The notes under the pieces were generated by a model. It was not told the DNA's origin. It searched no databases and was given only the letters and a program-made list of their open reading frames with translations. The position numbers and the translations under genes are program-made. Below, piece after piece: positions 1 to 25,588 of a stretch of 64,000 nucleotides of DNA; position 1 is the stretch's first letter, and the number at the start of each line of letters is the position of its first letter. Source of the DNA: Jannaschia pohangensis (GTDB lineage: Bacteria; Pseudomonadota; Alphaproteobacteria; Rhodobacterales; Rhodobacteraceae); contig NZ_FORA01000003.1 of the NCBI RefSeq assembly GCF_900113875.1, positions 186,001 through 250,000 of the forward strand, written 5' to 3'.

Positions 1-115
1 TCCCGATGACCGACCCGTCCACCGGGTTCGTCACGTCGATGGTGGCCCCGCCGTCCGCGCCGACCCATTTGCCGTCGATAAGATTTGCCTGCTTCATCCA
101 GTCGGTGAACGCCAT
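1..115 (-). CDS. Aldehyde dehydrogenase, N-terminal fragment (possible sulfolactaldehyde dehydrogenase)
   Basis: Only the first 38 codons are inside the window; the gene continues off the left edge. The visible protein starts MAFTDWMKQANLIDGKWVGA and continues with an NPVDGSVIG stretch, which is the usual N-terminus of NAD(P)-dependent aldehyde dehydrogenases of the succinate-semialdehyde dehydrogenase (GabD) type. The catalytic Cys and Glu lie outside. It starts 5 bases after the epimerase stop, so it is co-transcribed with the genes at 120-1985. In a sulfoquinovose pathway a GabD-like enzyme oxidises sulfolactaldehyde to sulfolactate. That role is inferred from context only. Confidence 0.7.
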   Translation of the reverse strand, partial: MAFTDWMKQANLIDGKWVGADGGATIDVTNPVDGSVIG

Positions 116-119
116 GGGT

Positions 120-1073
120 CTAGTCCTTTGAAAAGGTGAAAGTCGTGATTTGATGATAGGTCTCGCCGGGGCGCAGGCCACAGTCGGGAAAGTCGTCATG
201 GTTGGGCGCATCGGGCCAGACCTGCGGCTCCAGCGCGACGCCGGCATGAGGGCCATAGCGCCGCCCGTCCAGCCCCGGCACCGGCGTGTTCAGCTTGGCG
301 CCGTCATAGACCTGCAACCCCGGCTCGGTCGTGGCGATGGCCATCGACAGGCCCGGCGCATGCAGCACCGCCACATCGCGCAGCGGCCCGCGCGCGTCCG
401 ACAGGCAGAGGTTGTGATCCAGCAATCCCGCCCCCGGCAGGCTCCGCCCCGCGCGGAAATCGAACTCCGTCCCCGCCACATCGGCCACGCCCGTCGGGAT
501 CAGGTCGTCGTCCACGGGCACATAGCAGTCCGCCGCGACGGTCAGATAATGGTCCGACACGTCCGCCGACCCCGACAGGTTCCAATAGCTGTGATGCGCG
601 ATGTTGCAGAGCGTCGGCGCCTCGCAGGTCGCGGTATACTCGACCCGAAGGCAGGCCCCGGGCGCACAGGTGAACAGCGCCTCGATCCGCATCGCGCCGG
701 GAAACCCCATTTCGCCATCGTCCAGATCGATGCCGAAGCGGATGTGATCCGACCCGCGCTCCAGCACGTCCCAGACCCGCTTGCCGATGCCCGCCGATCC
801 GCCGTGCAGTGTGTGTCGGCCCAGGAAATTCGGGTCGGTGCGATGCTCCACCCCGTCCAGCGTGAAGCGCGCGTTGCCGATCCGGTTGGCCACCCGCCCC
901 GCCGTCGCGCCCATATAGCTGGAATGCCCGGCGGCATAGTCGCCCAGAACGGCTAGCCCCAGGACCAACGGATGCCCGACCCCGTCCAGTCGCAGGTCGA
1001 CCAGCGCGGCCCCCCACTCGGTAAAGGTCGCCGTCAGGCCGTGGCCCGAAATCACATGTCGGTTCAGATCCAT
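120..1073 (-). CDS. Aldose 1-epimerase (GalM family), possible sulfoquinovose mutarotase
   Basis: A 317-residue GalM-type mutarotase, normal in length, which interconverts alpha and beta anomers of a free aldose in the cytoplasm. Visible family marks are the GR-x3-NRIG segment (about residues 59-66), His90, the AHHSYWNLSG motif (159-168) carrying the catalytic His, and the general base Glu282 in GVALEPQ. It lies 9 bases after the upstream dehydrogenase and 4 before the aldehyde dehydrogenase start, so it belongs to that operon. Known sulfoglycolysis operons carry a GalM-like mutarotase (YihR type) acting on SQ. Given the kinase and aldolase upstream, SQ is the likeliest substrate, but galactose or glucose cannot be excluded. 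Confidence 0.85.
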   Translation of the reverse strand: MDLNRHVISGHGLTATFTEWGAALVDLRLDGVGHPLVLGLAVLGDYAAGHSSYMGATAGRVANRIGNARFTLDGVEHRTDPNFLGRHTLHGGSAGIGKRVWDVLERGSDHIRFGIDLDDGEMGFPGAMRIEALFTCAPGACLRVEYTATCEAPTLCNIAHHSYWNLSGSADVSDHYLTVAADCYVPVDDDLIPTGVADVAGTEFDFRAGRSLPGAGLLDHNLCLSDARGPLRDVAVLHAPGLSMAIATTEPGLQVYDGAKLNTPVPGLDGRRYGPHAGVALEPQVWPDAPNHDDFPDCGLRPGETYHQITTFTFSKD

Positions 1074-1082: not shown

Positions 1083-1985
1083 CTAGTCCAAGCCGAGGTG
1101 CGCCGCCACGGTGCGCGCCGTCATTTCCGAAACACGGGCATTCGCCTCGACCGTGACGCCGCCGATATGCGGTGTCAGGATCAGGTTGGGAACGCCAGCA
1201 AAAGAATTGTCCGCGCCCAGAGGCTCCATCTCGAAGGTATCGAGCGCCGCCCCGGCCAGGTTGCCCGACCGCAGTGCCGCGCAGAGCGCCGCCTCGTTCA
1301 CCACGCCGCCCCGCGCCGCATTGATTACAACCGCCCCCTTTTTCATCGTGGCCAGCGCCCGCGCGTCCAGCATGTGCCGCGTCTCCTCGGTCAGCGGCAC
1401 ATGCAGCGACAGCACGTCCGCTGTCGCGATCACCTCGGCCAGCGGGCATTCGGTCGCGCCGGGAAACCCGCGCGTATAGGGGTCGTGGGCGATGCAGGTC
1501 ATGCCGAACGCCCGGGCCAGTTCCGCCGTCTTGCGCGCGATCTCGCCATAGCCGATCAGGCCAAGGGTCTTGCCCGCAATCTCCCGTCCCTTGCCCGCCG
1601 GCCCGCGCGGCCAGGTCCCCGCCTCCATCGCGGGCCGCATCATATACGCTCCGCGCAGCAGGACCGCCGCCGTCGTCACCACGTACTCCGCCACCGACAG
1701 CGTGTTGGCCCCGGTGGCCGGGAAGACGGTGATGTCGCGGGCGGCACAGCCCTCCATGTCGATATTGTCGAGGCCGACACCAAGCCGCCCGACACAGGTG
1801 AACCCCGCGTCCAAGAGGTCGCCGCGCACCTGCGTCCGGTTGCGCACGATGATCGCCTGCGCCGATCCGATCAGCCGCGCCAGGTCTTCGGGCCGATCCG
1901 GCAGGTCCGGCTCATAGGTCACCTCGCTGCGGGCGCGCAGCCAGTCGACCCAGGTGTCGTCCATGAATTCGGTGATCAGTATCAT
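1083..1985 (-). CDS. D-isomer 2-hydroxyacid dehydrogenase, probably (S)-sulfolactate dehydrogenase (SlcC-like)
   Basis: A 300-residue NAD-dependent dehydrogenase of the SerA/2-hydroxyacid family without a regulatory ACT domain. The nucleotide-binding loop is GLIGYGEIA (about 142-150), with Ala where many homologues have Gly. The catalytic set is Arg225 (NAARGG), Glu254 (DTFEMEP) and His273 (LTPHIGG). The known (S)-sulfolactate dehydrogenase SlcC belongs to this family, and its product is 3-sulfopyruvate. An aldehyde dehydrogenase that could make sulfolactate lies two genes downstream, so that role fits. It is the first gene of the 3' part of the locus, separated from the Gfo/Idh gene by 85 bases that hold two candidate operators. 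A phosphoglycerate or glyoxylate reductase role is the alternative. Confidence 0.8.
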   Translation of the reverse strand: MILITEFMDDTWVDWLRARSEVTYEPDLPDRPEDLARLIGSAQAIIVRNRTQVRGDLLDAGFTCVGRLGVGLDNIDMEGCAARDITVFPATGANTLSVAEYVVTTAAVLLRGAYMMRPAMEAGTWPRGPAGKGREIAGKTLGLIGYGEIARKTAELARAFGMTCIAHDPYTRGFPGATECPLAEVIATADVLSLHVPLTEETRHMLDARALATMKKGAVVINAARGGVVNEAALCAALRSGNLAGAALDTFEMEPLGADNSFAGVPNLILTPHIGGVTVEANARVSEMTARTVAAHLGLD

Positions 1986-2070: not shown

Positions 2071-3162
2071 TCAAATCCCCCGTGCCTGCAGGTCGATGGC
2101 ATGGCCCGACCGCGCCGACTCCTCGGCCGCCTCGCCCACCAGAACGGACCAATATCCATCTTCCAGCGACACCTCGGGCCGCCCCTTTCCGGTCCGCACC
2201 AGATCGCAGAAACGCTGGTGCTGAAAGAAGGTCGAGCCGTGGTGGTCCCCCGCGATCAGCAAGGCCTCGGGGGTGTGGATCACCTCCCGCACCTCCTGCT
2301 TCAGGGCCCGGATCGAGGTCACGAATTCCGCTTCGCGCGGCTGCCCGTCCGGCGCGAACCGCGCAGGCCCCGGAATGAACGCCTCACAGCGCGCATTGGG
2401 CCCGGTGACCGCCACGCTCTCCTGCCAATAGGAGCCTTCGGCGAACATGCACAGGTCCAGCATCCCCCTGGTTCCATTGGCAAAATCCACCACGACATAG
2501 GCGTTGTCGATGATGTCCGGAATACCCCCGGCATAGCGTTCGTCCCGGTGGTTCACGTCCACGCCGGCACTGGCATAGACCCGGATCGGGTCGGATTGCA
2601 GCAGCAGGCGCATCAGGTCCCAGAAGTGACAGCACTTCTCGACCAGCGTCCCGCCGGTGCGCGCGTTGAAGCGGTTCCAGTCGTTGACCTTGGGCAGGAA
2701 CGGAAAGCGGTGTTCGCGGATCGACACCATGCGCGGTGCGCCCATCTCCTCGCCCGCCACGGCTTGCAGCAGCCGCTGGATCGGCGGCATGTAGCGGTAT
2801 TCCATCGCCACCCAGATCGGCGCGACCCGCCCCTGCGCCTGGCTCAGCAGGTCGCGGCAATCCGCCGTCGTCGTCGCCAGCGGTTTCTCCACCAGGATCG
2901 GCTTGTCCGTTGCCAGCAATCGCTGGACAATTCCCGCATGCAGGTCATTGGGCGCCGCGATCAGGAAGACATCGCACAGGTCCGCCGCGATCATCTCCTC
3001 GGGGTCGGCAAAGGCCCGCGCCCCCGACAGTCCGGCCGAGGCCTTGCGCATCCCCTCGTCCGGGTCGGCCACGGCGGACACCGTCGCCCCGTCCAGAAGG
3101 GCGATGTTGCGGATATGCTCCTGCCCCATCATCCCCGCGCCGATCAGGCCGTAGCGGATCAT
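2071..3162 (-). CDS. Gfo/Idh/MocA family NAD-dependent oxidoreductase, candidate NAD+-dependent sulfoquinovosidase (GH188-like)
   Basis: A 363-residue protein with an N-terminal Rossmann fold (GLIGAGMMG, residues 5-13), the family EKP motif (92-94) and a GGTLVEKCCHFWD segment in the C-terminal domain. The start at 3162 gives an ATGA overlap with the upstream isomerase. A longer open frame exists but would run through that gene. The family covers inositol and sugar dehydrogenases and also NAD+-dependent glycosidases of GH109 and GH188. GH188 enzymes release SQ from SQ glycosides and occur in sulfoglycolysis clusters. No GH31 sulfoquinovosidase is visible here, so this gene could supply that activity. 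The assignment is contextual; a plain sugar dehydrogenase is possible. Confidence 0.75.
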   Translation of the reverse strand: MIRYGLIGAGMMGQEHIRNIALLDGATVSAVADPDEGMRKASAGLSGARAFADPEEMIAADLCDVFLIAAPNDLHAGIVQRLLATDKPILVEKPLATTTADCRDLLSQAQGRVAPIWVAMEYRYMPPIQRLLQAVAGEEMGAPRMVSIREHRFPFLPKVNDWNRFNARTGGTLVEKCCHFWDLMRLLLQSDPIRVYASAGVDVNHRDERYAGGIPDIIDNAYVVVDFANGTRGMLDLCMFAEGSYWQESVAVTGPNARCEAFIPGPARFAPDGQPREAEFVTSIRALKQEVREVIHTPEALLIAGDHHGSTFFQHQRFCDLVRTGKGRPEVSLEDGYWSVLVGEAAEESARSGHAIDLQARGI

Positions 3163-4490
3163 CGCGCGGCTCCCAGTTCGACCACATCGATACCAAGACC
3201 CGCTGCTACCCCGCGCAGCGCCTCGGCATGGTCGCCGTAGGCCAGCGCCATGTGATGCTCCAGCCCCGTGGCCATCACGTCGTCGCAGACCGCCCCCGCC
3301 GGGTTGTCGAACTGCACGACGCCCGATGTGCCGGTGAAGGCCATGGGCCGGTCCAGCACCGCGCCCGTCGCGATGACGGCTTGGGGTCGGCCGTAGGCCT
3401 GACTGAGCCGGAAGAGCGTGACCCGCCCGGCTTTCAGCGGAAACTCCAGCAAGAGCGCCTGTTTGCGATTGGTGTGGATCGTCGCATCCGGCGCCTTGGC
3501 CGCCATCGACACGGGCGCCTGACCGCAATGCCAGACGACCCCGGTCTCGCCGTCCATGTCCACCAGATCGGCCAGGAAGACCGGCGCATCGGCCACGTCC
3601 TGAAGGATGGCCTGCGTCACCGCGCCGTAGACATCCGCCTCGCAGGCACAGGGCGTGCGCGCCTCGCCCAGCATCGACACCGGCCCGCAGACCGCGCCGC
3701 CGTATTCGGTGAAGGTCTCGGGCCAGCAGCGGATGGCCATGGCGTCGAAGCGAAATTCGGATTTCAGCGCATCGAGCGCCCCCGCCAGCCGCAGCGACCG
3801 GTCGAGTTCACCCTTGTCCAACGTCTCCACCCCGCCCAGACCGGCGGCCTTCGCGGCATAGGGCGCAACGGCGTCATCCGGAAGCGCCCGCGCCCGGTCG
3901 AACAGGTCGGGCAACTCGAGCTCGGTCACCTCGGCCCCGGTCAGATCGCGCAACGCCGCCTTGTCATAGGCGCAGGTGTCGAAGCCGCCGGGCCGCTCTC
4001 CGATCCGCGCGATTTTCAGGTCGCGGCGGATCGCACGCGGCGTCGCCGCGGAGGGGCTTCCGAACCTCGGCGCGACCTCGGCCCCGGACAGGAGCGCGTC
4101 GAGGTCGACGGCATCTCCGTAAGCGAACGCGAACCGACGGTCGTTCAGGCCCAGGGCATGGGACAGAAGGTTCAGGCCGCAGAACGCATTGAGCCGAAGG
4201 CGCCCGCCGGTGCGCGGCTCGGGCACGGCCCAGATCGCGACGCGGCCCCGATGCGCTGTCGCAGCCCGCGTGGCAAAGGCGGCATCGGTGAAGGTGACCT
4301 GAAGGATCAGCAGGACATCCGCCTCGGCCGTCGCGGTCAATGCCACATCGTCAGCCTCCATCAGCAAATGGCGCGGCCCGACGATCTGGTGACCGGACGC
4401 ATCCAGCGCGGCCAGCATCATGGCCAGTTTTTCCTCGGCATAGGCAACATCGAAGGTCGGACGCGCCAGCGGTAGCAACCCGATTTTCAT
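3159..4490 (-). CDS. L-fucose/L-arabinose isomerase-like protein, candidate sulfoquinovose isomerase
   Basis: A 443-residue protein of the fucose/arabinose isomerase superfamily. Recognisable C-terminal features are CWPETFTEYG (about 255-264), CEADVYGA (283-290) and VWHCG (319-323), the region that carries metal-binding Glu/Asp/His residues in this fold. Members interconvert aldoses and ketoses with a divalent metal. The start abuts the aldolase stop with no gap and the stop overlaps the Gfo/Idh start by four bases. SQ isomerases unrelated to YihS, of this general fold, are reported in some sulfoglycolysis pathways as far as I recall. Here it would make sulfofructose for the kinase. Substrate not provable from sequence. 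Confidence 0.75.
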   Translation of the reverse strand: MKIGLLPLARPTFDVAYAEEKLAMMLAALDASGHQIVGPRHLLMEADDVALTATAEADVLLILQVTFTDAAFATRAATAHRGRVAIWAVPEPRTGGRLRLNAFCGLNLLSHALGLNDRRFAFAYGDAVDLDALLSGAEVAPRFGSPSAATPRAIRRDLKIARIGERPGGFDTCAYDKAALRDLTGAEVTELELPDLFDRARALPDDAVAPYAAKAAGLGGVETLDKGELDRSLRLAGALDALKSEFRFDAMAIRCWPETFTEYGGAVCGPVSMLGEARTPCACEADVYGAVTQAILQDVADAPVFLADLVDMDGETGVVWHCGQAPVSMAAKAPDATIHTNRKQALLLEFPLKAGRVTLFRLSQAYGRPQAVIATGAVLDRPMAFTGTSGVVQFDNPAGAVCDDVMATGLEHHMALAYGDHAEALRGVAAGLGIDVVELGAAR

Positions 4491-5525
4491 TCAGAACCCC
4501 GCATAGCCGTGGCGGAAGCCTGCCGTGGGATCGACGAATGCCCCGCCGTCGCCGCCATAGCATTCATGCGCCTGCCAAGGCGTTGCCCGCGCATCGGTCA
4601 GCGCGTTGAGCTCGGCCATGTAGGGCACGCTGTCGCGCCGCAGCCCCGCCTCCATCGCGTCCCAGTCGGGATAGGACCGGAACGCATCCAGCCAGATCGC
4701 CCGCCCCGCCAGATAGCCCGAGGCCCCGGCGGCATAGGCGTATTCCAGCACCGTCTTGAAATCGGCCTTGCCCGCGCCCGCCGACAGCATGACCCAGGGC
4801 CGCCCGGCCAGACGCCCCATCTCGTCGAAGAGGGCCTGCACCGACGCATCACCGCCCGCAATCCCCTGGGCGGGCACCGGGCTTTCCAGCTTGAAGACAT
4901 CGACGCCGTAGTCCGCCCCGGCAAAAGCCTCCACGCTGGCGAGCACATGGTCGGAATGCTTGGTCGCCATCTCGGTGTATTCGCTGGTCTGTTCGGCATC
5001 GCTGTCGACCGGATGGACCAGCAGTTCGAACAGGAACGGGATGTCGAGCGCGGCGCATGCCTCGCCCGTGCGCTTGACGAAATCGTGCTGCGCGGCCTTC
5101 ACCTCGGCGCTGATGTCGGGGCGATACCAGGCCAGAACCTTGACCGCATCGCCGCCCATCCGCTTGATCTTGGCCACCGACCAGTCGTCGATCTCGGACG
5201 AATAGCGGCCTTGCCCGGTCTCGCGGAACAGGCTGTCTTCCAGCGTCACGATCAGGCCCTTGCGCGGGTCGAACGCCTGCCAGCCGTGGGGGATGGCATA
5301 GTGCGGGTCCAGAAGCATGGCCGTGGACGAAGGCTGCAACGCGGTCATCAACGTGGTCTTGGCGCGGGCCACATCCTCCCACGGGGCCTCGGGCGTGCCA
5401 TGGTGGGCGGCGATCGGTCCCTTGATCGGCGGGCGTTGATCCACGGCCGTCATCTTGAAGCGACCGGCGTCGTCGGCCATGCGGCGAAAGCCGAGTTGCT
5501 TGCCCGGGGTAAGGGTCAGGGGCAT
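4491..5525 (-). CDS. LacD/YihT-family class I aldolase (probable sulfofructose-1-phosphate aldolase)
   Basis: A 344-residue class I aldolase of the tagatose-1,6-bisphosphate aldolase (LacD) / sulfofructosephosphate aldolase (YihT) family. It shows DQR (29-31), LLDPHY (71-76), the Schiff-base Lys212 in DVFKLESP, LSAGAGK (247-253) and AGRAIW (273-278). It would split a ketose phosphate into DHAP and an aldehyde, sulfolactaldehyde if the substrate is sulfofructose 1-phosphate. The first ten codons overlap the end of the kinase by 10 bases and the stop touches the isomerase start. Tagatose bisphosphate cleavage is the alternative, but the YihV-like kinase favours the sulfosugar. Confidence 0.85.
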   Translation of the reverse strand: MPLTLTPGKQLGFRRMADDAGRFKMTAVDQRPPIKGPIAAHHGTPEAPWEDVARAKTTLMTALQPSSTAMLLDPHYAIPHGWQAFDPRKGLIVTLEDSLFRETGQGRYSSEIDDWSVAKIKRMGGDAVKVLAWYRPDISAEVKAAQHDFVKRTGEACAALDIPFLFELLVHPVDSDAEQTSEYTEMATKHSDHVLASVEAFAGADYGVDVFKLESPVPAQGIAGGDASVQALFDEMGRLAGRPWVMLSAGAGKADFKTVLEYAYAAGASGYLAGRAIWLDAFRSYPDWDAMEAGLRRDSVPYMAELNALTDARATPWQAHECYGGDGGAFVDPTAGFRHGYAGF

Positions 5526-6361
5526 GGGGTCTCCAGTTCGGAATGGGTCGGATAGGTGGTCCAGCCGCCCGCGCGGCTGCATTTGTGCGCGGCGGCGGTA
5601 TTGGCGAAGGCCGAGGCGGCGGTCAGGTCGGCCCCCCGGCCCAGAGCCAGCGCAAAGGCCCCGTGCCACAGGTCGCCTGCGCCAAGCGTGTCGACGGCAT
5701 GGACCTTGGGCGCGGGCACATGCGGGCCGTTCGCCCAATGCACGCCGTCTGGCCCGTCGGTATAGGCGACCTGCCCGGGCAGGCGCGCGGCGGCATCGGC
5801 CAGGGCGCGGGGCAGCGCATCGATCCCGGTGAAATCCCGCAGGCCGGGGGCCGAGAAGACCACATGCGTCGCCAGCGCGGCCAGGGGCGCGGGCGTGAAT
5901 TTCTCGCCATCCAGAACGGCGGGGCGACCCGCCTTTCGGGCCGCGCGCAAGACGGCTTCGGTCGCCTGCGGCCAGCGGCAATCGGCCAGCGCCACGTCGA
6001 ATTCGGGCACGGGGGGCGGCGTCTCGGGCAGGTCGCTGCCCGGGAAATTGACGATCATCCGCTCGCCGGCGCGGTCCACCATGACGGAACTCAGCGGCGT
6101 CGCCCCGCCCCGCGCAAAGGCCGGGCGCAGCCCCTGGGCCGTCAGCATCGCGGCCAGCTCGTCCCCTGTGGCATCGCGCCCGAGCCGGGTCATCAGCGTG
6201 ACCTCGCCCCCCAGACGTGCGGCCCCCACGGCGGCATTGGCGGCACAGCCGCCGCCGATCCGCTCGAAGGCGAACGACCGGTGCTTGGCCCCGCCCTGCG
6301 GCAAGGTCTCGACCCGGTGGACATAGTCCATGACCGCGATGCCGCAGACCAGAACCCTCAT
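5516..6361 (-). CDS. PfkB-family carbohydrate kinase, probable sulfofructose kinase (YihV-like)
   Basis: A 281-residue ribokinase-type sugar kinase. PfkB marks are GGGCAANAA (36-44) and the catalytic GAGD (227-230). It aligns by eye with E. coli YihV along its length: VMVDRAGERMIVNFP, FDVALADCRW, the VLDGE segment and the C-terminal KCSRAGG all have close YihV counterparts. Residues I recall as the YihV sulfonate-binding set (Lys27, Asn109, Arg138) are matched by Lys26, Asn105 and Arg129. It would phosphorylate sulfofructose at O1 with ATP. The start overlaps the peroxidase stop (ATGA), giving translational coupling. Confidence 0.85.
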   Translation of the reverse strand: MRVLVCGIAVMDYVHRVETLPQGGAKHRSFAFERIGGGCAANAAVGAARLGGEVTLMTRLGRDATGDELAAMLTAQGLRPAFARGGATPLSSVMVDRAGERMIVNFPGSDLPETPPPVPEFDVALADCRWPQATEAVLRAARKAGRPAVLDGEKFTPAPLAALATHVVFSAPGLRDFTGIDALPRALADAAARLPGQVAYTDGPDGVHWANGPHVPAPKVHAVDTLGAGDLWHGAFALALGRGADLTAASAFANTAAAHKCSRAGGWTTYPTHSELETPCP

Positions 6362-7656
6362 CTGTCCACCGCCAGTCCCGACGGCACGGCGTCGGGCACA
6401 CCCAGTCGTCCGCGCAGGCTTTCGGTCCCTTCCAGCGCGCCCAGAAACGCCACCAGATCCGCCACCTGACCCTCAGTCAGCGCCACCGGCGCGATGTCGA
6501 CCGCCGCCGCGACGCGGGCCATTTCGCGCGCGTCGTCGCGCACCACGAAGTCGATGGCCGCCAACCAATCCGCCCGCGGCAAGCGCGCCGCTTCGGGCGT
6601 CCAGGCGTCGAAAGCCGCCCGTGGGTCGGCGTGGTGACGGATAATTCCTTCGAGCGTCGGATAGGCCCCGTTGTGGCCGTAAGGCGCGGTCAGGGTCACG
6701 TTGCGCAGCGACGGTGTGCGGAAGCGATAGGCGTCGGCCAGATCGTCGGTCTCGGCCATGCGGCCCACGTCGCGGACCACGGGATCGAAGCGTCGCGTCC
6801 GCCCGGGTCCGAAGGGCGGCAGGGCGAGGGCGTGGAAGTCGTGGTCGGTGAACAGCGGGCCGGAATGGCAACTGGCGCAATTGGCCACACCAAAGAACAG
6901 GTCGCGCCCTCGCTCTTGCGCCGGTGATAATGCCCCGTCCCCCGCCAGCCAGCGATCGTAGGGCGCATCCAGCGAGCGCCATTCGGAGTTCATGAAATCC
7001 GCGAGCGCGATGGCGATATGGGAAATCGTCACCTCTTCGGCGCTGTCGATGGGAAAGGCCGCGACGAACATCGCGCCATAGGCGGGGATGGTGCGCACAC
7101 GCTTGGCCAGGATCGGCCAGCCCAGGTCGATCCGGTCGTTGACCGCCCCGATCACCTCGTTCTCGCCCACGTTGCCCGCCATCTCGAATTGCGCAGTCAG
7201 CGGGAAGATCGCCTGAACCGCCAGAAGGTTGGGCAGGTCGGCGGGCAGCCATTCCTCGGCCGGGCTGTCGTAGCCGGTGCCGTAGTGGTCCGACACCGAC
7301 ACGCGGCCATCGTGGAAGAACGTCTCGAACTCCACCGCGCCGATGTTCCACAGGCCCGGCGCGTTGCGCGGCACCCGCTTGGCGATCCGGTCGATCCCGG
7401 TGCCGGGCGTACGGCGCGGGCCCAGACCCACGCCCCCCTCGCCGATGCCAAGGCTGAGGCCGTCGGCGGTGCCCAGATCGGGATGGTGACAGGTGGCGCA
7501 GGCGATGTTGCGATTGCCCGACAGGATCGGGTCGTAGAACAGCAGCTGGCCGATCCGCGCCCGCGCCGCGTTGTAGTCGTGGAAAACCACCTCTTCCGCC
7601 TTGGCAGGCGTCATCGGCATCGCCAAACTCAGGCCGAGGAGGACCCCATGAAACAC
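6358..7656 (-). CDS. Di-heme cytochrome c peroxidase / MauG-like protein
   Basis: A 432-residue exported protein with two c-type heme sites, CATCH (53-57) and CASCH (260-264), the layout of bacterial cytochrome c peroxidases and MauG relatives, which act in the periplasm on H2O2 or on protein substrates. I chose the GTG at 7656 because it is preceded by AAGGG and gives a signal peptide ending around AMPMTPAKA. The ATG at 7620 would remove most of that peptide. The start overlaps the divergent Sel1 gene by 9 bases. It heads the sulfosugar operon (ATGA overlap with the kinase), an unusual partner whose role there is unclear. Confidence 0.8.
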   Translation of the reverse strand: MFHGVLLGLSLAMPMTPAKAEEVVFHDYNAARARIGQLLFYDPILSGNRNIACATCHHPDLGTADGLSLGIGEGGVGLGPRRTPGTGIDRIAKRVPRNAPGLWNIGAVEFETFFHDGRVSVSDHYGTGYDSPAEEWLPADLPNLLAVQAIFPLTAQFEMAGNVGENEVIGAVNDRIDLGWPILAKRVRTIPAYGAMFVAAFPIDSAEEVTISHIAIALADFMNSEWRSLDAPYDRWLAGDGALSPAQERGRDLFFGVANCASCHSGPLFTDHDFHALALPPFGPGRTRRFDPVVRDVGRMAETDDLADAYRFRTPSLRNVTLTAPYGHNGAYPTLEGIIRHHADPRAAFDAWTPEAARLPRADWLAAIDFVVRDDAREMARVAAAVDIAPVALTEGQVADLVAFLGALEGTESLRGRLGVPDAVPSGLAVDR

Positions 7657-13892: not shown

Positions 13893-13894
13893 TC

Positions 13895-14781: not shown

Positions 14782-14805
14782 ATCAGGACGCATCGGGAGG
14801 AAAAC

Positions 14806-16080: not shown

Positions 16081-16096
16081 CCGCCATCACGACACC

Positions 16097-16120: not shown

Positions 16121-16204
16121 ACCGACCCATCCGCAAACGCCCCGCCCCGCGTTTGCGCATGTGCCGGACAGGATTTCGCGCAACCGCCACGCAGGAGACC
16201 CGCC

Positions 16205-18333: not shown

Positions 18334-18347
18334 CCCCGGATCTTCCG

Positions 18348-20447
18348 ATGCCTCCTTCCCTTCCGATCCGCAGCTGGCGGCTCGACGATCCCGCGCAGAC
18401 CATGGTCCTTGCCGCGACGGGCGACCGTCTGCCGCAGGTCGTCTATTGGGGCGCGCCCCTGCCCGTGTCCGAAGATCTGGGCACGCTCGCCCGCGCCCAT
18501 GTCCTCGACGTGACCGGCGGCATGCTGGACGAGAACCCGGACCTCAGCCTCTGCCCCGAAGCCATCCGCAGCTTTCCGGGCCAACCCGGCCTCACCCTGC
18601 GCGACGCGGGCGGCACATCGGTCCTGCCCCGTTGCACCCGTGTCGACGACACGCAGGACGGCGACACCCTCGCCCTGACCTACGGCGATGCCGCGAACGG
18701 CCTGACCCTGACCTTCCGCTTCACCACCGACCCCGCGACGCGGATCATCACCGCGCAGACGACGCTCGCCTGCGACCGCCCGACCCACGTGACCTGGCTT
18801 GTGGCCCCCGTCCTCCCCGCACCGCAGCACAGCGACGGGATGATCGACGTCTCGGGCCGCTGGTGCGGGGAATTCCAGCTCAACCGCACCCCCTGGTCCC
18901 ACGGCATCCACGCCCGCGAAAGCCGGTCGGGCCGCACGGGCCACGAGAATTTCCCAGGCCTGATCGTCCCCTGCATCGGCGCGACCAATACCCAGGGAGA
19001 AGCCTACGGATTCCACTACGGCTGGTCTGGCGGGCACAAGATGATCGCCGAGGAACTCCCCGATGGCCGCCGACAGATCCAATGGGGCCACACCAACGGC
19101 AGCGAGCGGGGCCCGGCCACGTTCTTCGAGAGCGCGCCACTTTACGTCACCTACAGCCAGACAGGCCTGAACGGCTGCGCCACCGCCTTCCAGCGTCACG
19201 CCCGCGACCGCATCGTCACCTGGCCCCGCCCCGATACCCCGCGCCCCGTCCACTACAACTGCTGGGAGGCGGTCTATTTCGACCACGACCTCGCCACCCT
19301 GACCGAGATCGCCAGCCGCGCCGCATCGCTTGGCGCCGAACGCTTCGTCCTTGACGACGGCTGGTTCGGACAGCGCGACGACGACACCTCCTCGCTCGGC
19401 GACTGGGACATCGACCGCCGCAAATGGCCCGACGGCCTGACCCCGCTCATCGACCACGTCCACGGGGCGGGCATGACCTTCGGCCTCTGGTTCGAACCCG
19501 AGATGGTCAACACCGACAGCGACCTCGCCCGCGCCCATCCAGACTGGATCCTCGGCCCCGTCGATCAGGTGGAGGGGCGACAGCAGCGCGTCCTCGACAT
19601 GGCCAACGGCGATGTCCGCGACCACCTCCACGGCAAGATCGCCGCGATCCTGTCGACCCACGCCATCGACTACATCAAATGGGATCATAACCGCGTCCTG
19701 CCCCTGCCCGACGCGGCGCAGACGCGCGGCACCTATGCCCTTCTCGACCGGCTCCGCGCCGATTTCCCGCAGGTGGAGATCGAAAGCTGCGCCTCGGGCG
19801 GCGGCCGCATCGACTTCGGCATCCTGAAGCGCACGCAACGCGTCTGGCTCTCGGATAGCAACGACGCGCACGAACGTCTGCGCATCCAGCACGACGCCGC
19901 GCTCTTCCTGCCGCTGGCTATCACCGGCAGCCACGTTGGCCCCCGCCATTGCCACACGTCAGGCCGAGTGTTCGGCATCCGCTTTCGCGCCTGGGTCGCA
20001 GCGCAACGGCACATGGGGTTCGAGATGGACCCCCGCGAATTGACCGAAGACGAAGCGACCGTGCTGCGCGACGTCACGACCTGGTGGAAGGCCAACCGCG
20101 ACTGGCGCACCGACGCCGACATACTGCGCCTCGACAGCAGCGATCCGGCGGTCCTGGCCGAACAACAGATGGCGAGTGACGGCCACCGCTTCGTGGTCTT
20201 CGCGGGCAAATCCGCCACCTCGACCCAGATCGCGCCGCGCCCCTTGCGCCTCACCGCCCTCGACCCGGCGGCACGGTACCGTGTCGGCCTTCTGAACCGC
20301 GCCGACGCCCCCCGCCTCAGCCGCGGCAGCCCCGCGCTCAAGCGCGGGCCAATCGAGGTGTCGGGCGCCTGGCTCATGACCCACGGCCTGACCCTGCCCT
20401 GGAGCTTCCCGGACACGATGTGGGTCATCGAAGGCCACCGCCTGTGA
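18348..20447 (+). CDS. Alpha-galactosidase, glycoside hydrolase family 36
   Basis: A 699-residue GH36 enzyme without a signal peptide, so cytoplasmic. The catalytic nucleophile is Asp446 in YIKWDHNR and the acid/base Asp503 in WLSDSND. Substrate-site segments include LDDGWFGQRDDD, GLWFEPEMVN and ESCASGGGRIDFG. It removes terminal alpha-galactose by a retaining mechanism. It follows the importer permeases by 14 bases. Possible substrates are melibiose or raffinose, the digalactosyl-glycerol headgroup of DGDG, or alpha-galactosyl-glycerol (floridoside). Released galactose would enter the oxidative pathway encoded immediately downstream. Confidence 0.93.
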   Translation: MPPSLPIRSWRLDDPAQTMVLAATGDRLPQVVYWGAPLPVSEDLGTLARAHVLDVTGGMLDENPDLSLCPEAIRSFPGQPGLTLRDAGGTSVLPRCTRVDDTQDGDTLALTYGDAANGLTLTFRFTTDPATRIITAQTTLACDRPTHVTWLVAPVLPAPQHSDGMIDVSGRWCGEFQLNRTPWSHGIHARESRSGRTGHENFPGLIVPCIGATNTQGEAYGFHYGWSGGHKMIAEELPDGRRQIQWGHTNGSERGPATFFESAPLYVTYSQTGLNGCATAFQRHARDRIVTWPRPDTPRPVHYNCWEAVYFDHDLATLTEIASRAASLGAERFVLDDGWFGQRDDDTSSLGDWDIDRRKWPDGLTPLIDHVHGAGMTFGLWFEPEMVNTDSDLARAHPDWILGPVDQVEGRQQRVLDMANGDVRDHLHGKIAAILSTHAIDYIKWDHNRVLPLPDAAQTRGTYALLDRLRADFPQVEIESCASGGGRIDFGILKRTQRVWLSDSNDAHERLRIQHDAALFLPLAITGSHVGPRHCHTSGRVFGIRFRAWVAAQRHMGFEMDPRELTEDEATVLRDVTTWWKANRDWRTDADILRLDSSDPAVLAEQQMASDGHRFVVFAGKSATSTQIAPRPLRLTALDPAARYRVGLLNRADAPRLSRGSPALKRGPIEVSGAWLMTHGLTLPWSFPDTMWVIEGHRL

Positions 20448-20513
20448 TCTGGCATTTTCCTCCGGGGGCCGTGACATTGACCCCGAACGCGCCCGCAATC
20501 AACCCGTCTGCAC

Positions 20514-20546
20514 AGGGGGTGTACGGGGGGTGTACGCGGGGTGCAC
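20514..20546 (+). repeat. Three imperfect 11-bp tandem units (GGGGGGTGTAC-like)
   Basis: Units AGGGGGTGTAC (20514-20524), GGGGGGTGTAC (20525-20535) and GCGGGGTGCAC (20536-20546) sit 22 bases before the ATG of the sugar dehydrogenase. The period and the GGG...TAC frame match the GGGTGATCTAC arrays at 2042 and 12130 (8 of 11 positions identical between the GGGGGGTGTAC unit and GGGTGATCTAC). They probably form an operator for the dehydrogenase-dgoKA segment; the protein is unknown. Confidence 0.6.
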
Positions 20547-20568
20547 AACTTAGCAGAAGGACTGCGGC

Positions 20569-21339
20569 ATGACCGACACAGCAACCTATCCCGACCTCTC
20601 CGGCGCCTCGGTCTTCATCACCGGGGGCGGGTCGGGCATCGGCGCGGCCCTGACCGAAGGCTTCCTGCGGCAGGGGTCGAAGGTCGCCTTCATCGGGCGC
20701 TCCGATGCCTCGGCCTTCGCCTCCGAGATGGAGCAAGCCACGGGGAACAAACCGCTTTTCATCCAGGGCGACATCACCGACATCGCCACGCTGCGCGCCG
20801 CGATGGACCGGGCCGCCGCCGCCCATGGCCCCATCACCCGGCTGGTGAACAACGCCGCCAACGATCAGCGGCACGCCACGCTGGACGTCGACGAGGACTT
20901 CTATGACTGGTCCCAGTCGATCAATCTCAAATCCTACTTCTTTTCCTGCCAGCACGCCATTCGTGGCATGAAATCCGTGGGTTACGGCCACATCGTGAAC
21001 TTCTCCTCGATCAGCTACATGATGGGCAACGCGGGCTACGCCATCTACACTGCCGCCAACGGCGCCATCACCGCCATGACCCGCAGCCTCGCCCGGGAAT
21101 TCGGCCCCGACCACATCCGCGTAAACGCCCTCGCCCCCGGTTGGGTGCTGACCCAGAAGCAGCTCGACAAATGGGCCGACCCCCAAAGCGTCGCGGCCCA
21201 TGTCGAACGGCAGTGCCTCAAAGAGACGCTTGCCCCCGAAGATATTGTGAACCCCACGCTTTTCCTGTCGTCCAACGCCTCGCGCATGATGACCGGACAG
21301 GCCATGGTCGTCGACGGCGGTGTCGTGGTAACAGGCTGA
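20569..21339 (+). CDS. SDR-family sugar dehydrogenase, probable D-galactose 1-dehydrogenase
   Basis: A 256-residue short-chain dehydrogenase with cofactor loop TGGGSGIG, NNAAN, the Ser147 of NFSSIS and Tyr160. The usual YxxxK reads Y-T-A-A-N: the catalytic lysine position is Asn164, confirmed in the DNA (AAC at 21058-21060). It starts the dgoK-dgoA-lactonase-GH42 run. As a De Ley-Doudoroff galactose dehydrogenase it would give galactonolactone for the SMP-30 enzyme. The missing lysine makes either a modified mechanism or a different reaction possible. Ribosome site AAGGA precedes the ATG. Confidence 0.75.
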   Translation: MTDTATYPDLSGASVFITGGGSGIGAALTEGFLRQGSKVAFIGRSDASAFASEMEQATGNKPLFIQGDITDIATLRAAMDRAAAAHGPITRLVNNAANDQRHATLDVDEDFYDWSQSINLKSYFFSCQHAIRGMKSVGYGHIVNFSSISYMMGNAGYAIYTAANGAITAMTRSLAREFGPDHIRVNALAPGWVLTQKQLDKWADPQSVAAHVERQCLKETLAPEDIVNPTLFLSSNASRMMTGQAMVVDGGVVVTG

Positions 21340-21340
21340 C

Positions 21341-22234
21341 ATGACCCGCTGGATCGCCGCAGACTGGGGCACGACCGCCCTGCGCATCACCCTGATGGAG
21401 GGGGATCGCCCGCTGGACACCCGCGCCAGCGGCGACGGCATGAACAGCTTGACCCGTGACATGTTCGAGGCCAGTTTCCTGAGCCTCGCCGGAGATTGGA
21501 TCGACGACAAGAGCCACGGCCCGACACAGGTTTTCGCCTGCGGCATGGTCGGCGCGCGCCAGGGGTGGGCCGAGGCGGCCTATCGCACGACGCCCTGCAC
21601 CCCGCTCGACGGCGGGCTGACGCGGGTGGTGACCGCCGACCCGCGCCTCGACGTGCGGATCGTGCCCGGCGTGCGGCAATTGACGCCCCATCCGGACGTC
21701 ATGCGCGGAGAAGAGACACAGATCGCGGGCATCCTGCGCGCCCTGCCCGATTTTGACGGCGTCGCCTGCCTGCCGGGAACCCACACCAAATGGGTCCATC
21801 TGTCCGCCGGCGAAATCGTCAGTTTCCGCACTGCGATGACCGGCGAGTTGTTTGCAACCATCTGTTCCCAAACCGTTCTTCGCCATTCCCTGGTCGGCGA
21901 CGCCTGGCAGGAAGAGACCTTCCTCGCCGCCGTGTCGGACGCCCTCTCACGCCCCGAGGTGCTCACCGCGCGCATGTTCGAATTGCGCGCCGCCGACCTT
22001 CTGCATGGGCAAGAGGCCGCCGTTGCGCGCAGCACCCTCTCGGGCCTCTTGATCGGCGCGGAACTCGCGGCCACCAAACCGTGGTGGCTGGGGCGTGACG
22101 TGGTCATCACCGGCTCACCCAAGACCACCCGCGCCTATGATGTCGCCCTGAAATCCCAGGGGCTTGCCCCCCGCATCCTGCCCGCCGACGCCATGACGCA
22201 GGCCGGTCTGATCGCCGCAAAGGACGCCGCATGA
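21341..22234 (+). CDS. dgoK: 2-dehydro-3-deoxygalactonokinase
   Basis: A 297-residue KDGal kinase. The N-terminus [13 protein letters not shown] is the phosphate-binding loop of this small family, and [12 protein letters not shown] (about 147-158) is a second signature. It phosphorylates 2-keto-3-deoxygalactonate at O6 with ATP. It starts one base after the dehydrogenase stop and overlaps dgoA by four bases, so the two consecutive pathway steps are translationally coupled. Confidence 0.92.
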
Positions 22235-22836
22235 CCCGACCCCTGATTGCCATCCTGCGAGGCATCACCCCCGACGAGGCCGTGCCCGCCTGCGCCGCCC
22301 TGATCGCCGCCGGGATCACCACGATCGAGGTGCCGCTGAACTCGCCCGACCCGTTCCATTCCATCGCCGCCATGTCCGCCGCTCACGGCACCGGAGCGCT
22401 GATCGGCGCGGGCACGGTGCTGAGCGTCGCGGATGTCGAGGCGGTCAAGGACGCGGGCGGCAAGCTGGTCGTGTCGCCCAACACCGACGCCGAAGTCATT
22501 GCCCACACACGCAAACTCGGGATGGAAAGCTGGCCGGGGGTGTTCACCCCGACCGAGTGTTTCGCCGCCCTCAAGGCTGGCGCCACGGGACTCAAGCTGT
22601 TCCCCGGCGCGATGGCCGGGCCTGCGGGCCTGCGGGCGATGCGGGCCATCCTGCCCCCCGGAACGCAGGTCTACGCCGTGGGCGGGGCGGGCCCCGACAA
22701 CTTCGGCGACTGGATCGCCGCCGGGGCCGACGGATTTGGCCTTGGCACGGCCTGCTATACCCCGGGCCTTTCGGTCGACGACATCGCTACCCGCGCCAAG
22801 GCCATCGTCGCCGCCTATGACAAGGCCGTCGCATGA
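22231..22836 (+). CDS. dgoA: 2-dehydro-3-deoxy-6-phosphogalactonate aldolase
   Basis: A 201-residue KDPG/KDPGal-type class I aldolase. [10 protein letters not shown] at the N-terminus holds the Arg and Glu region, GAGTVLS follows, and the Schiff-base Lys is in GLKLFPGA (about 128-135). It splits KDPGal into pyruvate and glyceraldehyde 3-phosphate. Neighbouring dgoK identifies it as the galactonate rather than gluconate version. Overlaps by four bases on both sides bind it into the operon. Confidence 0.92.
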
Positions 22837-23693
22837 CCGACGCGCGCGTCTTCGACGACCGCGCCTGTGTCCTGGGCGAAGGGCCGCTCTGGCATCCGGG
22901 GCGGCGGCAGCTCTTCTGGTTCGACATCCTGGGCCGCAAGCTTCTGAGCCGCGACGCCAGCGGCCCGCTCGACTGGGATTGGGATTATCCGGTCAGCGCC
23001 GCCGCCTGGGTCGATGCCGATACGCTGATGGTCGCGGGCGCCGATGCGCTCTGGCGCTTCGACATCGCGACAGGCGCACGCAGCCGGATCGTCGCCCTCG
23101 AGGCGGACATCCCCGCGAACCGCTCCAACGATGGCCGCGCCGACCCTCTGGGCGGCTTCTGGATCGGGACGATGGCCCTGGACGCGACACCGGGAGCAGG
23201 CGCGATCTATCGCTATTTCCGGGGCGAGTTGCGCAAGCTTTACAAGGACATCACGATCCCGAACTCGATCTGCTTCTCGCCCGAAGGTGACACGGCCTAT
23301 TTCGCCGACACCGCCAAGGGCGCGATCTGGAAGCAGCATATCGACCGGGCCGGCTGGCCGTCGGGACGGGCCGAGATCTTCGTCGATTTCTCGCATGTAG
23401 GCCTCGCCCCCGACGGCGCGGTCTGCGACGCCGATGGCAATGTCTGGGTCGCGCAATGGGGCGGCTGGCGCGTGGCTTGTCACGGACCGGACGGAAGGTT
23501 CCGCGCGGCGCTGGCTTGCGGCGCAGGTCAGGCGACCTGCCCGGCCTTCGGTGGACCCGACATGAACCAGATGTTCATCACCTCCGCTGGCGACGGCCTG
23601 ACGGGGTCAGCCGCCCATCACGTGGGCGCGGGCCAGACCTTCGTCGCGGACATGCCGGTCAAGGGCCTGGCGGAACATCGGGTCATCCTGTGA
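22833..23693 (+). CDS. SMP-30/gluconolactonase-like sugar lactonase
   Basis: A 286-residue six-bladed propeller of the SMP-30/regucalcin family. Metal-site segments are [10 protein letters not shown] (Glu near residue 14), [17 protein letters not shown] (Asn/Asp) and the VAQWGGWRV region. It would hydrolyse galactono-lactone, the product of the sugar dehydrogenase, to galactonate. The start overlaps dgoA and the stop overlaps the GTG of the beta-galactosidase by four bases. L-arabinono- or gluconolactone are alternatives. Confidence 0.88.
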
Positions 23694-25588
23694 AACGCAC
23701 GCTCGGCACCTGCTATTATCCCGAACATTGGCCCGAGGAGATCTGGGCCGACGACGCCCGCCGCATGGCGGATCTGGGGCTGACCTGGGTCCGCATCGGG
23801 GAGTTCGCCTGGTCGCGGCTGGAGCCCGCCCCGGGCCGCTTCGACTGGGGCTGGCTCGACCGGGCCATCGACGTTCTGACCGGCGCGGGCCTGTCTGTGG
23901 TCTTGGGCACCCCCTCGGCCACGCCGCCGCGCTGGATGCTGGACCGGCACCCGGACATGCTGGCCGTCGATGCGACGGGCCGTCCGCGCAAATTCGGATC
24001 GCGCCGCCACTACTGCTTCAGCCATGCCGCCTATCGCGCCGATGCCGCCCGTATGGCGGGCCTGATGGCCGAACGCTACGGCGACCGGGTGGCCGCCTGG
24101 CAGACAGACAACGAATACGGCTGCCATGATACGGTCATCAGCTACTCCGCCGCCGCCCGCGATGCCTTCCGCCTGTGGCTGGTCGAGCGCTATGGGACGG
24201 TCGACCGTCTCAACCAAGCCTGGGGCAACGTCTTCTGGTCGATGGACTACGACAGCTTCGACCAGATCGACCTGCCGAACCTGACCGTGACCGAGCCGAA
24301 CCCCGCCCATCTCATGGCCTTCCGGCGCTTCTCGTCCGATCAGGTGGTGGCCTGGAACGCGGCGCAAGTCGCGGCGATCCGGGCCCATTCAAAGGCTCCG
24401 ATTTCGCACAATTACATGGGCCGCGTGACCGAGTTCGACCACTATGCCACCGGCCGCCAGATGGAGATCGCGACCTGGGACAGCTATCCCCTGGGCTTCC
24501 TGCTGGACCGGGTCCCGGGCGGCGACAAGGCGGCCTACCTGCGGCAGGGCGACCCGGATTTTCAGGCGTTCCACCATGATCTCTATCGCGCCTGCGGACA
24601 GGATGGCCGCTGGTGGATCATGGAGCAGCAACCCGGCCCGGTGAACTGGGCGCCCTGGAACCCCGCGCCCCTGCCCGGCATGGTCCGGCTCTGGTCGTGG
24701 GAGGCTTTCGCCCACGGGGCCGAGGCCGTCTGCTGGTTCCGCTGGCGGCAATTCCCGCAGGCGCAGGAGCAGCAACATGCGGGTCTTCTGCGCTCCGATT
24801 CGACCGAGGCCCCGGGATTTGCCGAAGCCGCCGAAGTCGCCGCCGAACTGCGCGACGCGCCCGATGTCGCGCCCATGCAGGCGCCCGTCGCGCTGGTCTT
24901 CGACTATGCCTCGCAATGGGCCTGGGAGGTGCAGCCGCAGGGCCAGGGCTTCGACCATTTCGCGCTCTGCTTCGACCTCTACCGCGCGCTGCGCAGTCTC
25001 GGGCTATCCATCGACATCCTGCCACCCGAGACCGCCACCCTCGACGGCTATGCGATGGTTCTGGTGCCGGGTCTGCTGACGATCCCCGCCGCGCTTCGCA
25101 CCGCGATGGAGCGGGCCGAGGGGATCGTGGTGACCGGCCCCCGCACCGACCTCAAGACCGACGAGCTGGCCATGCCGATGCCCCTTGGTCCGAACCTTCC
25201 GGGGCTGGCCGCGACATCAGTGATGGAGGAAACCTTTCCACCCGACGCCCCCCGTGGCCTGCAGAACGGTGGCGGCATCGACCTCTGGCTCGAACACCTG
25301 AAGACCGATGCGGAGGTGACCGAGCGGACGACCGACGGGACGGCCGTCCTGCTGCGGCAGGGTCGGCGCGCCCATCTGGCCGGTTGGCCGAACAAGCCCT
25401 CCGCACAGCGCATTCTGGGTGATCTGGCGCGCGAAGCGGGGCTGGCGGTGACGCCTCTTCCCGAAGGGCTGCGCCTGCGCGACACGGCGACGGAACGGTT
25501 TGTATTCAACTACGCCAGCCACCCGCTCGATTATGCGGGGCAGATCATTCCGCCGGCGGGCCTGCTCCGCCTCAGCCGCCCATCCTGA
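23690..25588 (+). CDS. Beta-galactosidase, glycoside hydrolase family 42
   Basis: A 632-residue GH42 enzyme starting at GTG 23690 (GTGA overlap). The N-terminus RTLGTCYYPEHWPEE is typical. The acid/base is Glu142 in TDNEYG and the nucleophile Glu312 in WWIMEQQPG. The A (barrel), B and C domains are all present, and there is no signal peptide. It cleaves terminal beta-galactose in the cytoplasm. Together with the GH36 enzyme it could degrade alpha-Gal-beta-Gal-glycerol completely. Its last 17 bases overlap the convergent GAPDH gene. Confidence 0.93.
   Translation: MKRTLGTCYYPEHWPEEIWADDARRMADLGLTWVRIGEFAWSRLEPAPGRFDWGWLDRAIDVLTGAGLSVVLGTPSATPPRWMLDRHPDMLAVDATGRPRKFGSRRHYCFSHAAYRADAARMAGLMAERYGDRVAAWQTDNEYGCHDTVISYSAAARDAFRLWLVERYGTVDRLNQAWGNVFWSMDYDSFDQIDLPNLTVTEPNPAHLMAFRRFSSDQVVAWNAAQVAAIRAHSKAPISHNYMGRVTEFDHYATGRQMEIATWDSYPLGFLLDRVPGGDKAAYLRQGDPDFQAFHHDLYRACGQDGRWWIMEQQPGPVNWAPWNPAPLPGMVRLWSWEAFAHGAEAVCWFRWRQFPQAQEQQHAGLLRSDSTEAPGFAEAAEVAAELRDAPDVAPMQAPVALVFDYASQWAWEVQPQGQGFDHFALCFDLYRALRSLGLSIDILPPETATLDGYAMVLVPGLLTIPAALRTAMERAEGIVVTGPRTDLKTDELAMPMPLGPNLPGLAATSVMEETFPPDAPRGLQNGGGIDLWLEHLKTDAEVTERTTDGTAVLLRQGRRAHLAGWPNKPSAQRILGDLAREAGLAVTPLPEGLRLRDTATERFVFNYASHPLDYAGQIIPPAGLLRLSRPS

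Follow-up and report, generated by a model that had tools for sequence, protein, structure and literature searches.

Predicted sulfoquinovose and alpha/beta-galactoside operons lie side by side in Jannaschia pohangensis and are linked in several alphaproteobacterial genera

We examined a 64,000-nucleotide stretch of the Jannaschia pohangensis genome (3.73 Mb; contig NZ_FORA01000003.1, positions 186,001 to 250,000), here called the window, whose first 25,588 nucleotides hold two neighbouring gene rows, one for putative sulfoquinovose (SQ) catabolism (region 1) and one for putative galactoside catabolism (region 2). Genes were called from codon-position GC content together with family profile searches (Pfam, NCBIfam/TIGRFAM), and loci of relatives were studied as fetched stretches rather than whole genomes. 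In a named collection of genomes, a relative of the region 1 isomerase is encoded in 198 loci, the best 80 of which were used for neighbourhood counts; this collection was ranked by isomerase similarity and is for that reason biased to Jannaschia and Litoreibacter. An initial annotation had assigned region 1 to SQ catabolism, which the family matches bear out. The operon lies on the minus strand and runs from position 12032 downward past the left edge of the window, in this order:

11271 to 12032, minus strand: DeoR-family regulator, presumed regulator of the SQ operon (PF00455/PF08220)
10601 to 11254 (start uncertain), minus strand: TRAP transporter small permease DctQ (PF04290)
9306 to 10598, minus strand: TRAP large permease DctM (PF06808, 393 bits)
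8208 to 9275, minus strand: TRAP binding protein DctP (PF03480, 185 bits)
6358 to 7660 (start approximate), minus strand: MauG-like di-haem cytochrome (PF03150; TIGR03981 243 bits, below cut-off; in 61 of the 80 related loci)
5516 to 6361, minus strand: PfkB-family kinase, candidate sulfofructose (SF) kinase (PF00294, 121 bits)
4491 to 5525, minus strand: class-I LacD/YihT-type aldolase, candidate sulfofructose-1-phosphate (SFP) aldolase (NF009498 315 bits, above the cut-off of 184; YihT 7ag1 62.7 bits)
3159 to 4490, minus strand: putative SQ isomerase, SftI-like, with an AraA/FucI-type fold (NF048012 244 bits, cut-off 700)
2071 to 3162, minus strand: SqgA, predicted GH188 NAD+-dependent sulfoquinovosidase (366 bits to 8qc3 ArSqgA; contact residues kept)
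1083 to 1985, minus strand: D-2-hydroxyacid dehydrogenase (PF02826; in 50 of the 80 related loci)
120 to 1073, minus strand: aldose 1-epimerase, candidate SQ mutarotase (PF01263 219 bits; in 47 of the 80 related loci)
1 to 115 (start approximate), minus strand: 5' end of an SSADH/GabD-like aldehyde dehydrogenase, candidate sulfolactaldehyde (SLA) dehydrogenase, the remainder lying left of the window in the 20-kb stretch L101 (69-70% to the aldehyde dehydrogenase of the G193 cluster; TIGR01780 603 bits against a cut-off of 646, scored on the portion within L101)

The Gfo/Idh/MocA-fold protein encoded at 2071 to 3162 has 8zn9, 8qc3 (366 bits) and 8qc2 (355 bits) as its nearest solved structures. 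Entries 8QC2/3/5/6/8 represent SqgA, with which the sulfoquinovosidase family GH188 was founded, and the SQ-contacting residues are named in the accessible part of the report by Kaur et al. (2023, PMC10755693). We placed these residues by eye on the alignment with 8qc3 (ArSqgA numbers, the chain number minus 13). The active-site equivalents K107, Y136, E189, H193 and H321 are kept, as are the sulfonate contacts R166, L170 (backbone) and K172, which with the former five make up the eight published substrate contacts. Glu163 of the same report (PMC10755693, as far as accessible) is displaced by one residue from the conserved Glu of the alignment in this numbering. SqgA would be predicted to hydrolyse SQ-glycosides with NAD+. 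The SQ isomerase model SftI (NF048012) is the sole NCBIfam match of the isomerase, and two partial, related proteins from the same bacterial family score 80 and 92 bits against it. In a predicted structure of the isomerase (pLDDT 90) the best folds in the PDB are L-arabinose and L-fucose isomerases (E 4e-22, TM 0.58, with a large root-mean-square deviation), and a PDB sequence search with the isomerase returned no meaningful relatives. Among the 80 isomerase loci the neighbourhood is kept, with SqgA in 72, the kinase in 72, the aldolase in 71 and DctP in 67.

Candidate SF kinase, SFP aldolase and SLA dehydrogenase genes stand together at the locus (family-level assignments: PfkB, LacD/YihT-type, aldehyde dehydrogenase). 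The set resembles the GH188 clusters of a sulfoglycolytic Embden-Meyerhof-Parnas (sulfo-EMP) pathway, which comprise SqgA, SQ isomerase, SF kinase, SFP aldolase and SLA dehydrogenase according to the accessible text of PMC10755693, whose Figure 5c legend names Jannaschia faecimaris, of the same genus as the window. It differs from those clusters in its TRAP importer, a word absent from the main text of that article, and in the adjacent galactoside operon, which the accessible text leaves unmentioned. Actinobacterial clusters with the Tyr variant of GH188 (PMC11465081, accessible in part) likewise hold fucose-isomerase, D-3-phosphoglycerate-dehydrogenase, SLA dehydrogenase, SF kinase and SFP aldolase genes; unlike the window, with its TRAP transporter and unaltered sulfonate site, they carry ABC transporters, a changed sulfonate residue and genes for sulfolactate sulfo-lyase. 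The sulfo-EMP2 set of Firmicutes, whose SqiA is described as a class-II aldolase in the available part of PMC12890257, was considered and rejected: the window aldolase is of the class-I LacD/DeoC type (LacD/YihT), so the gene set differs from sulfo-EMP2. The D-2-hydroxyacid dehydrogenase may oxidise sulfolactate; its gene (1083 to 1985) resembles the D-3-phosphoglycerate-dehydrogenase gene of the actinobacterial clusters as these are presented in the accessible text of PMC11465081. Elsewhere in the genome a sulfoacetaldehyde acetyltransferase scores above cut-off, which none of 14 control genomes showed. Further breakdown of the sulfonate may therefore take place. For the MauG-like di-haem cytochrome we know of no role in SQ catabolism; in G351, G197 and G099 its gene sits downstream of divergent TRAP genes. 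Judged by its genes, region 1 is very probably a complete-looking SQ-glycoside operon, and we regard the assignment of this half to SQ as near certain.

Region 2, from 12837 to 25588, had been described as an importer with GH36 and GH42 galactosidases. These are present together with galactose-oxidation enzymes, and the region ends at 25588 as claimed. UgpC and IclR are encoded on the minus strand, and the binding protein (SBP), both permeases and all the enzymes on the plus strand:

12837 to 13892, minus strand: UgpC/MalK-type ABC ATPase of the galactoside importer (NF008653 471 bits, above the cut-off of 432)
13895 to 14689, minus strand: IclR-family regulator, presumed regulator of the galactoside operon (PF01614)
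14806 to 16080, plus strand: ABC sugar-binding protein, SBP (PF01547; nearest structure AcbH 3oo6, 139 bits)
16265 (start approximate) to 17140, plus strand: ABC permease 1 (PF00528)
17485 to 18333, plus strand: ABC permease 2 (PF00528)
18333 (start approximate) to 20447, plus strand: GH36 alpha-galactosidase (PF02065 347 bits; AgaB 4fnq 311 bits)
20569 to 21339, plus strand: short-chain dehydrogenase/reductase (SDR) sugar 1-dehydrogenase, candidate galactose dehydrogenase (NF053674 249 bits, below the cut-off of 400)
21341 to 22234, plus strand: 2-keto-3-deoxygalactonokinase (PF05035 312 bits)
22231 to 22836, plus strand: 2-keto-3-deoxy-6-phosphogalactonate aldolase (NF006600 276 bits, above the cut-off of 207)
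22833 to 23693, plus strand: SMP-30/gluconolactonase-type lactonase (PF08450 218 bits)
23690 to 25588, plus strand: GH42 beta-galactosidase (PF02449 473 bits; 1kwg 691 bits)

The two genes proposed to encode binding proteins do encode such proteins, the one at 8208 a TRAP DctP (8208 to 9275) and the one at 14806 an ABC SBP. By sequence comparison with the structure database, the GH36 protein is nearest to the AgaA/AgaB alpha-galactosidases, and the nearest solved structure of the SBP is AcbH, a galactose receptor. Four De Ley-Doudoroff enzymes (dehydrogenase, lactonase, 2-keto-3-deoxygalactonate kinase and 2-keto-3-deoxy-6-phosphogalactonate aldolase) are predicted at the family level, the dehydrogenase with a model score below cut-off. 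A galactonate dehydratase was not found in the locus; an IlvD/EDD homologue, 46% identical to the gene of the G193 cluster, lies elsewhere in the genome. Region 2 is very likely, as a statement at the level of families, an alpha/beta-galactoside operon with De Ley-Doudoroff enzymes, and (di)galactosyl-glycerol is a plausible candidate substrate of its SBP, GH36 and GH42. Alpha-galactoside operons with De Ley-Doudoroff oxidation, such as the rhizobial agp/aga genes, share the ABC importer, GH36 and galactose-oxidising enzymes with region 2, which differs from them in the added GH42 and the adjacent SQ operon. Between the two permease genes (17150 to 17484) the sequence encodes a YjbR-family domain, which has matches in four further Jannaschia loci (L196, L219, L220, L221), and a GapDH-type gene convergent with GH42 (25572 to 26549) keeps its position in L216, L220 and L221. 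In a Thalassobacter genome (G237) the GapDH-type gene lies near a DGOK-like gene, with no other galactoside gene matched nearby on that side, a possible remnant.

The initial annotation had held that a lack of conserved linkage in relatives would speak against the pairing of the two halves; they are in fact found together in several genera, and their arrangements number at least four. Our family sample consisted of 394 Rhodobacteraceae genomes, 49 of which match the isomerase at E <=1e-10 and 32 at >=45% identity (this genome included), and about 20 kb were read on each side of the isomerase where contigs allowed. SqgA lies alongside the isomerase in 26 of these 32 genomes; 21 hold GH42 and 15 hold GH36. 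A galactoside cluster is found near the isomerase in four of the 32 (G000, G310, G171 and G193), which is four of the 21 that hold both isomerase and GH42. In G193 a GH4 alpha-galactosidase and an IlvD/EDD dehydratase (L067:6226-9302) occupy the slot of the Jannaschia GH36. The named collection, which overlaps the family sample (G310, G171, G193), was searched for the galactoside permease in 49 genomes, and 42 of them hold it at 58-95% identity. Linkage was accepted there if the contigs of the two halves were equal in length, or if UgpC/IclR lay in the locus at matching coordinates, and was established in 20 of the 42 genomes with isomerase and permease (eight Jannaschia, eight Litoreibacter, L164, L172, L130 and L135); three of these 20 belong to the family sample as well. 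L117 was left out. Linkage in Ahrensia R2A130, suggested at first by coordinates, was rejected since the contigs are of unequal length (138 kb and 121 kb), and the same contig-length check removed L136, L160, L175, L122 and L177.

In Jannaschia and Litoreibacter (arrangement a) the galactoside unit stands on the DeoR side of the SQ genes, and in Alg231_04 (L164) and the metagenome-assembled genome (MAG) L172/L217, a Rhodobacteraceae lineage, it stands at the other end (b). In Ahrensia SB9154 (L130/L215) it lies about 3 kb from SqgA and faces it, with other genes between (c); this locus gave no aldolase or DeoR match. The Rhizobiaceae PL25a loci (L146, L199) resemble (a) and are split over two contigs, with linkage resting only on matching contig ends (d), and in the Hyphomicrobiales MAG Bse_9 (L135/L191) the galactoside unit is upstream in the same direction (e). 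Where (a) has GH36, arrangements (b), (d) and (e) have a GH4 alpha-galactosidase (633 bits to NF011657 for the protein of b), so that the pair of alpha- and beta-activities is kept by unrelated enzymes. Under a rough binomial null of uniform placement (60 kb in 4 Mb), which disregards the clustering of catabolic genes, P is 0.036 for two of 20 family genera (three linked genera counted as two arrangements), 8.6e-4 for three of 13 resolved genomes outside the family and 1.3e-4 for five of 33 lineages; the choice of the 13 outside genomes and the inclusion of (d), for which L146 was counted here and left out of the 20, were our own. Recurrent linkage probably exceeds chance.

Each half carries its own regulator gene and its own, distinct predicted operator in the window:

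12069 to 12086, minus strand: predicted DeoR operator TTTCGTTTCTTTCGTTTT, the sole window match at <=3 mismatches, with similar upstream repeats in relatives by eye
14764 to 14780, plus strand: predicted IclR operator GTTTCATTAATTGGAAC, the single exact window match of the palindrome

In relatives, the repeats that inspection by eye shows ahead of the DeoR gene are of the type TTTCGTT, and the palindrome GTTYCRN5YGRAAC lies no more than 160 nt ahead of the SBP gene in 22 of 32 rows, two of which repeat genomes already included (20 of 30 distinct loci). A single regulon for both halves was considered for this window and rejected, as the predicted DeoR-type and IclR-type operators occur once each. 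The two units appear to be under separate control in this genome, to judge by these predicted operators.

Some other genomes lack an orthologue of the SQ regulator. Among ten chosen entries from nine genomes, four genomes (this one included) hold a DeoR orthologue at >=71%, and in five (Litoreibacter roseus, Jannaschia helgolandensis, J. faecimaris, Jannaschia LMIT008 and Thalassobacter stenotrophicus) the best match is 42% or none. The SQ genes are kept without a DeoR orthologue in L104, L106, L110, L112 and L118; LMIT008 (L112) has no aldolase match, and Thalassobacter (G410) lacks both a DeoR orthologue and a galactoside-permease match. In L104, L106 and L110, the loci of three of the genomes without DeoR, the SQ genes are full length (in the alignment of the L104 kinase a stop falls at column 280 of 282, where the gene ends) and the DeoR-type operator was not found. 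UgpC of L104 and L110 is closely followed on the same strand by the TRAP/SQ genes, with no DeoR gene; about 105 nt separate the UgpC end from the first DctQ residue in the alignment. A scan of L104 from 1700 to 2400, across the UgpC-DctQ junction, found no consensus promoter or terminator; the IclR-type operator was not found in the L104 stretch, which ends near the IclR start and so has the IclR-SBP spacer outside it. The layout of L104 and L110 is compatible with SQ genes transcribed within the unit of the galactoside regulator. DeoR loss as a mark of linkage was nevertheless rejected, since it is equally common without linkage: among loci with enough sequence, no DeoR match was obtained in four of 18 linked and eight of 40 others.

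The gene content, the GH188 contact residues, the distinct predicted operators and the recurrent linkage can be read from the sequences themselves; from them we infer the substrates, the specificity of the transporters and the reason for the linkage. The explanation that we prefer, with a probability of roughly 0.47, is that these are two neighbouring, separately regulated catabolic units that were joined more than once, owing to substrates that arrive together. In the first unit the TRAP transporter would import a sulfonate, probably SQ or SQ-glycerol, and SqgA (GH188, NAD+) would release SQ. Mutarotase, isomerase, kinase and class-I aldolase would then convert SQ to dihydroxyacetone phosphate and sulfolactaldehyde; oxidation of the latter by the aldehyde dehydrogenase would give sulfolactate, the whole being a variant of sulfo-EMP. 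In the second unit the ABC importer would take up alpha- and beta-galactosides, GH36 and GH42 would release galactose, and SDR, lactonase, off-locus dehydratase, kinase and aldolase would turn it into pyruvate and glyceraldehyde 3-phosphate by the De Ley-Doudoroff route. Sulfoquinovosyl diacylglycerol (SQDG), digalactosyl diacylglycerol (DGDG) and monogalactosyl diacylglycerol (MGDG) count among the main lipids of photosynthetic membranes, and their headgroups, set free from lysed phototrophs, would be the most natural candidate for a common source. As the reason for the linkage, galactolipid headgroups are plausible, though rather less likely than not. The fullest form of this idea is a thylakoid-glycolipid headgroup island, in which marine Alphaproteobacteria would have repeatedly joined SQDG-headgroup and alpha/beta-galactoside operons for the joint use of SQ-glycerol, galactosyl-glycerol and digalactosyl-glycerol, and in which the DeoR-less SQ genes of J. 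helgolandensis and L. roseus would now be under the galactoside regulator; this form we consider doubtful.

Several observations weigh against a common source. The two halves share no operator in the window, where one predicted operator type was found per half. The absence of DeoR is independent of linkage (the four of 18 and eight of 40 loci given above), which lowers our confidence in the preferred explanation as well as in the headgroup island. Of the 21 family genomes with isomerase and GH42, 17 are unlinked within the stretches read, some of whose contigs were short, and 22 of the 42 named genomes are without established linkage, where the halves lie on separate long contigs, at a great distance, or on contigs too short for a decision. 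The linkage in Jannaschia and Litoreibacter may be one event. The isomerase scores below the SftI equivalog cut-off, the aldolase was not found in nine of the 80 isomerase loci (the linked L112 and L130 among them), and no lipase or glycerol gene occurs among the window genes that were family-scanned. The galactoside cluster is generic, GH42 being present in 195 of the 394 family genomes. The frequency of GH42 is only slightly raised in genomes with the SQ genes (21 of 32, compared with 174 of the other 362; Fisher P 0.066), so that co-occurrence is weak evidence for coupling. GH4 lies within 15 kb of GH42 in 42 of the 63 genomes with both among the matches listed, and the SQ cluster is missing in 37 of these 42; GH4-type galactoside clusters were therefore rejected as an SQ-specific subtype.

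Much of this would be expected if a generic galactoside operon, for melibiose, raffinose, lactose, floridoside or galactan fragments, had come to lie beside an SQ operon in flexible chromosomal regions that gather sugar genes, with no common source of substrates. We give this alternative somewhat less than an even chance. It accounts for GH42 being widespread and mostly unlinked to SQ, for SQ clusters that lie near other ABC operons with a UgpC-like ATPase (G210, G057 and G143, a further point against a common source), for the separate predicted operators and for DeoR loss that is not tied to linkage. It accounts less well for the recurrence of this pair in Rhodobacteraceae and further Alphaproteobacteria, which takes at least four forms and exceeds the expectation from uniform placement. 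The pair may also move, or have moved, as one block by horizontal transfer and been rearranged later, in which case the arrangements would not be independent; this is compatible with a shared source and with a generic operon alike. Such a transfer is favoured by the uneven spread of the isomerase (32 of 394 family genomes at >=45% identity) and by the likeness of (d) in Rhizobiaceae to (a) in Jannaschia. The galactoside enzymes beside the SQ genes differ, however (GH36 at >= ~70%, GH36 at ~40%, or GH4), which argues that different versions joined the SQ operon. We consider transfer as a block rather unlikely. It is very improbable that region 1 is a galactose/tagatose route, whose isomerase, kinase and tagatose-bisphosphate-aldolase-like enzyme would use galactose from region 2: L-arabinose isomerases, which can act on galactose too, are the best folds of the isomerase model and the aldolase family is that of tagatose-1,6-bisphosphate aldolase, but GH188 with its mapped sulfonate contacts, the isomerase's sole NCBIfam match to SftI (244 bits against 80 and 92 for the two partial relatives), the position of SqgA next to the isomerase in 26 of the 32 family genomes, against four of 32 for the galactoside cluster, and a galactose pathway within the galactoside operon itself all argue against it.

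The same route could be suggested from Escherichia coli, where yihT, yihS and yihV rise on lactose according to the accessible part of Kaznadzey et al. (2018, PMC5816610); a gel-shift cited in the available text of PMC10991401 gave no corroboration of lactose as effector. The yih cassette (PMC5816610, as far as accessible) is an earlier tie of SQ genes to a beta-galactoside, made by way of a DeoR regulator. In that cassette one set of genes answers to both sugars, whereas the window has two gene sets with separate predicted operators. Each half is already known separately, and their recurrent pairing is apparently undescribed in the literature searched, which was partial and held few subscription papers: no title or abstract in it concerned a joint SQ and galactolipid-headgroup locus or a recurrent pairing. 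If the preferred explanation with a headgroup source were true, the turnover of marine sulfolipid and galactolipid would be coupled at the gene level through one linked locus, and galactosyl-glycerol would be a candidate natural substrate of widespread clusters of GH36 or GH4 with GH42 that are otherwise read as melibiose/lactose operons. The shared-headgroup idea is open to testing in cultured J. helgolandensis, J. faecimaris and L. roseus.

The window also contains three 11-bp repeat arrays:

2034 to 2069: 11-bp tandem repeat of the GGGTGATCYACG type, dispersed over the genome
12128 to 12163: 11-bp tandem repeat array of the GGGTGATCYACG type, the same dispersed family as at 2034 to 2069
20515 to 20543: 11-bp tandem array GGGGGTGTACG, of the same period, with a sequence unlike the other two

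The claim that both halves share 11-bp arrays did not hold up, the region 1 type being genome-wide and the region 2 array another sequence. The region 1 family GGGTGATCYRCG has 26 genome matches at <=3 mismatches, against 0 for a reversed-pattern control. Its exact repeat was found in 11 of 222 fetched loci, all 11 from this genome, and was not seen among these 222 loci in the stretches from other genomes. It is a dispersed repeat and no locus-specific operator. A shared 11-bp repeat as common operator was rejected, given the dispersed repeat, the differing arrays and the other sequences of the predicted operators. Finally, an Rfam match to the ffh small RNA (RF01793, 60 bits) lies at 62630 to 62681 of the window.

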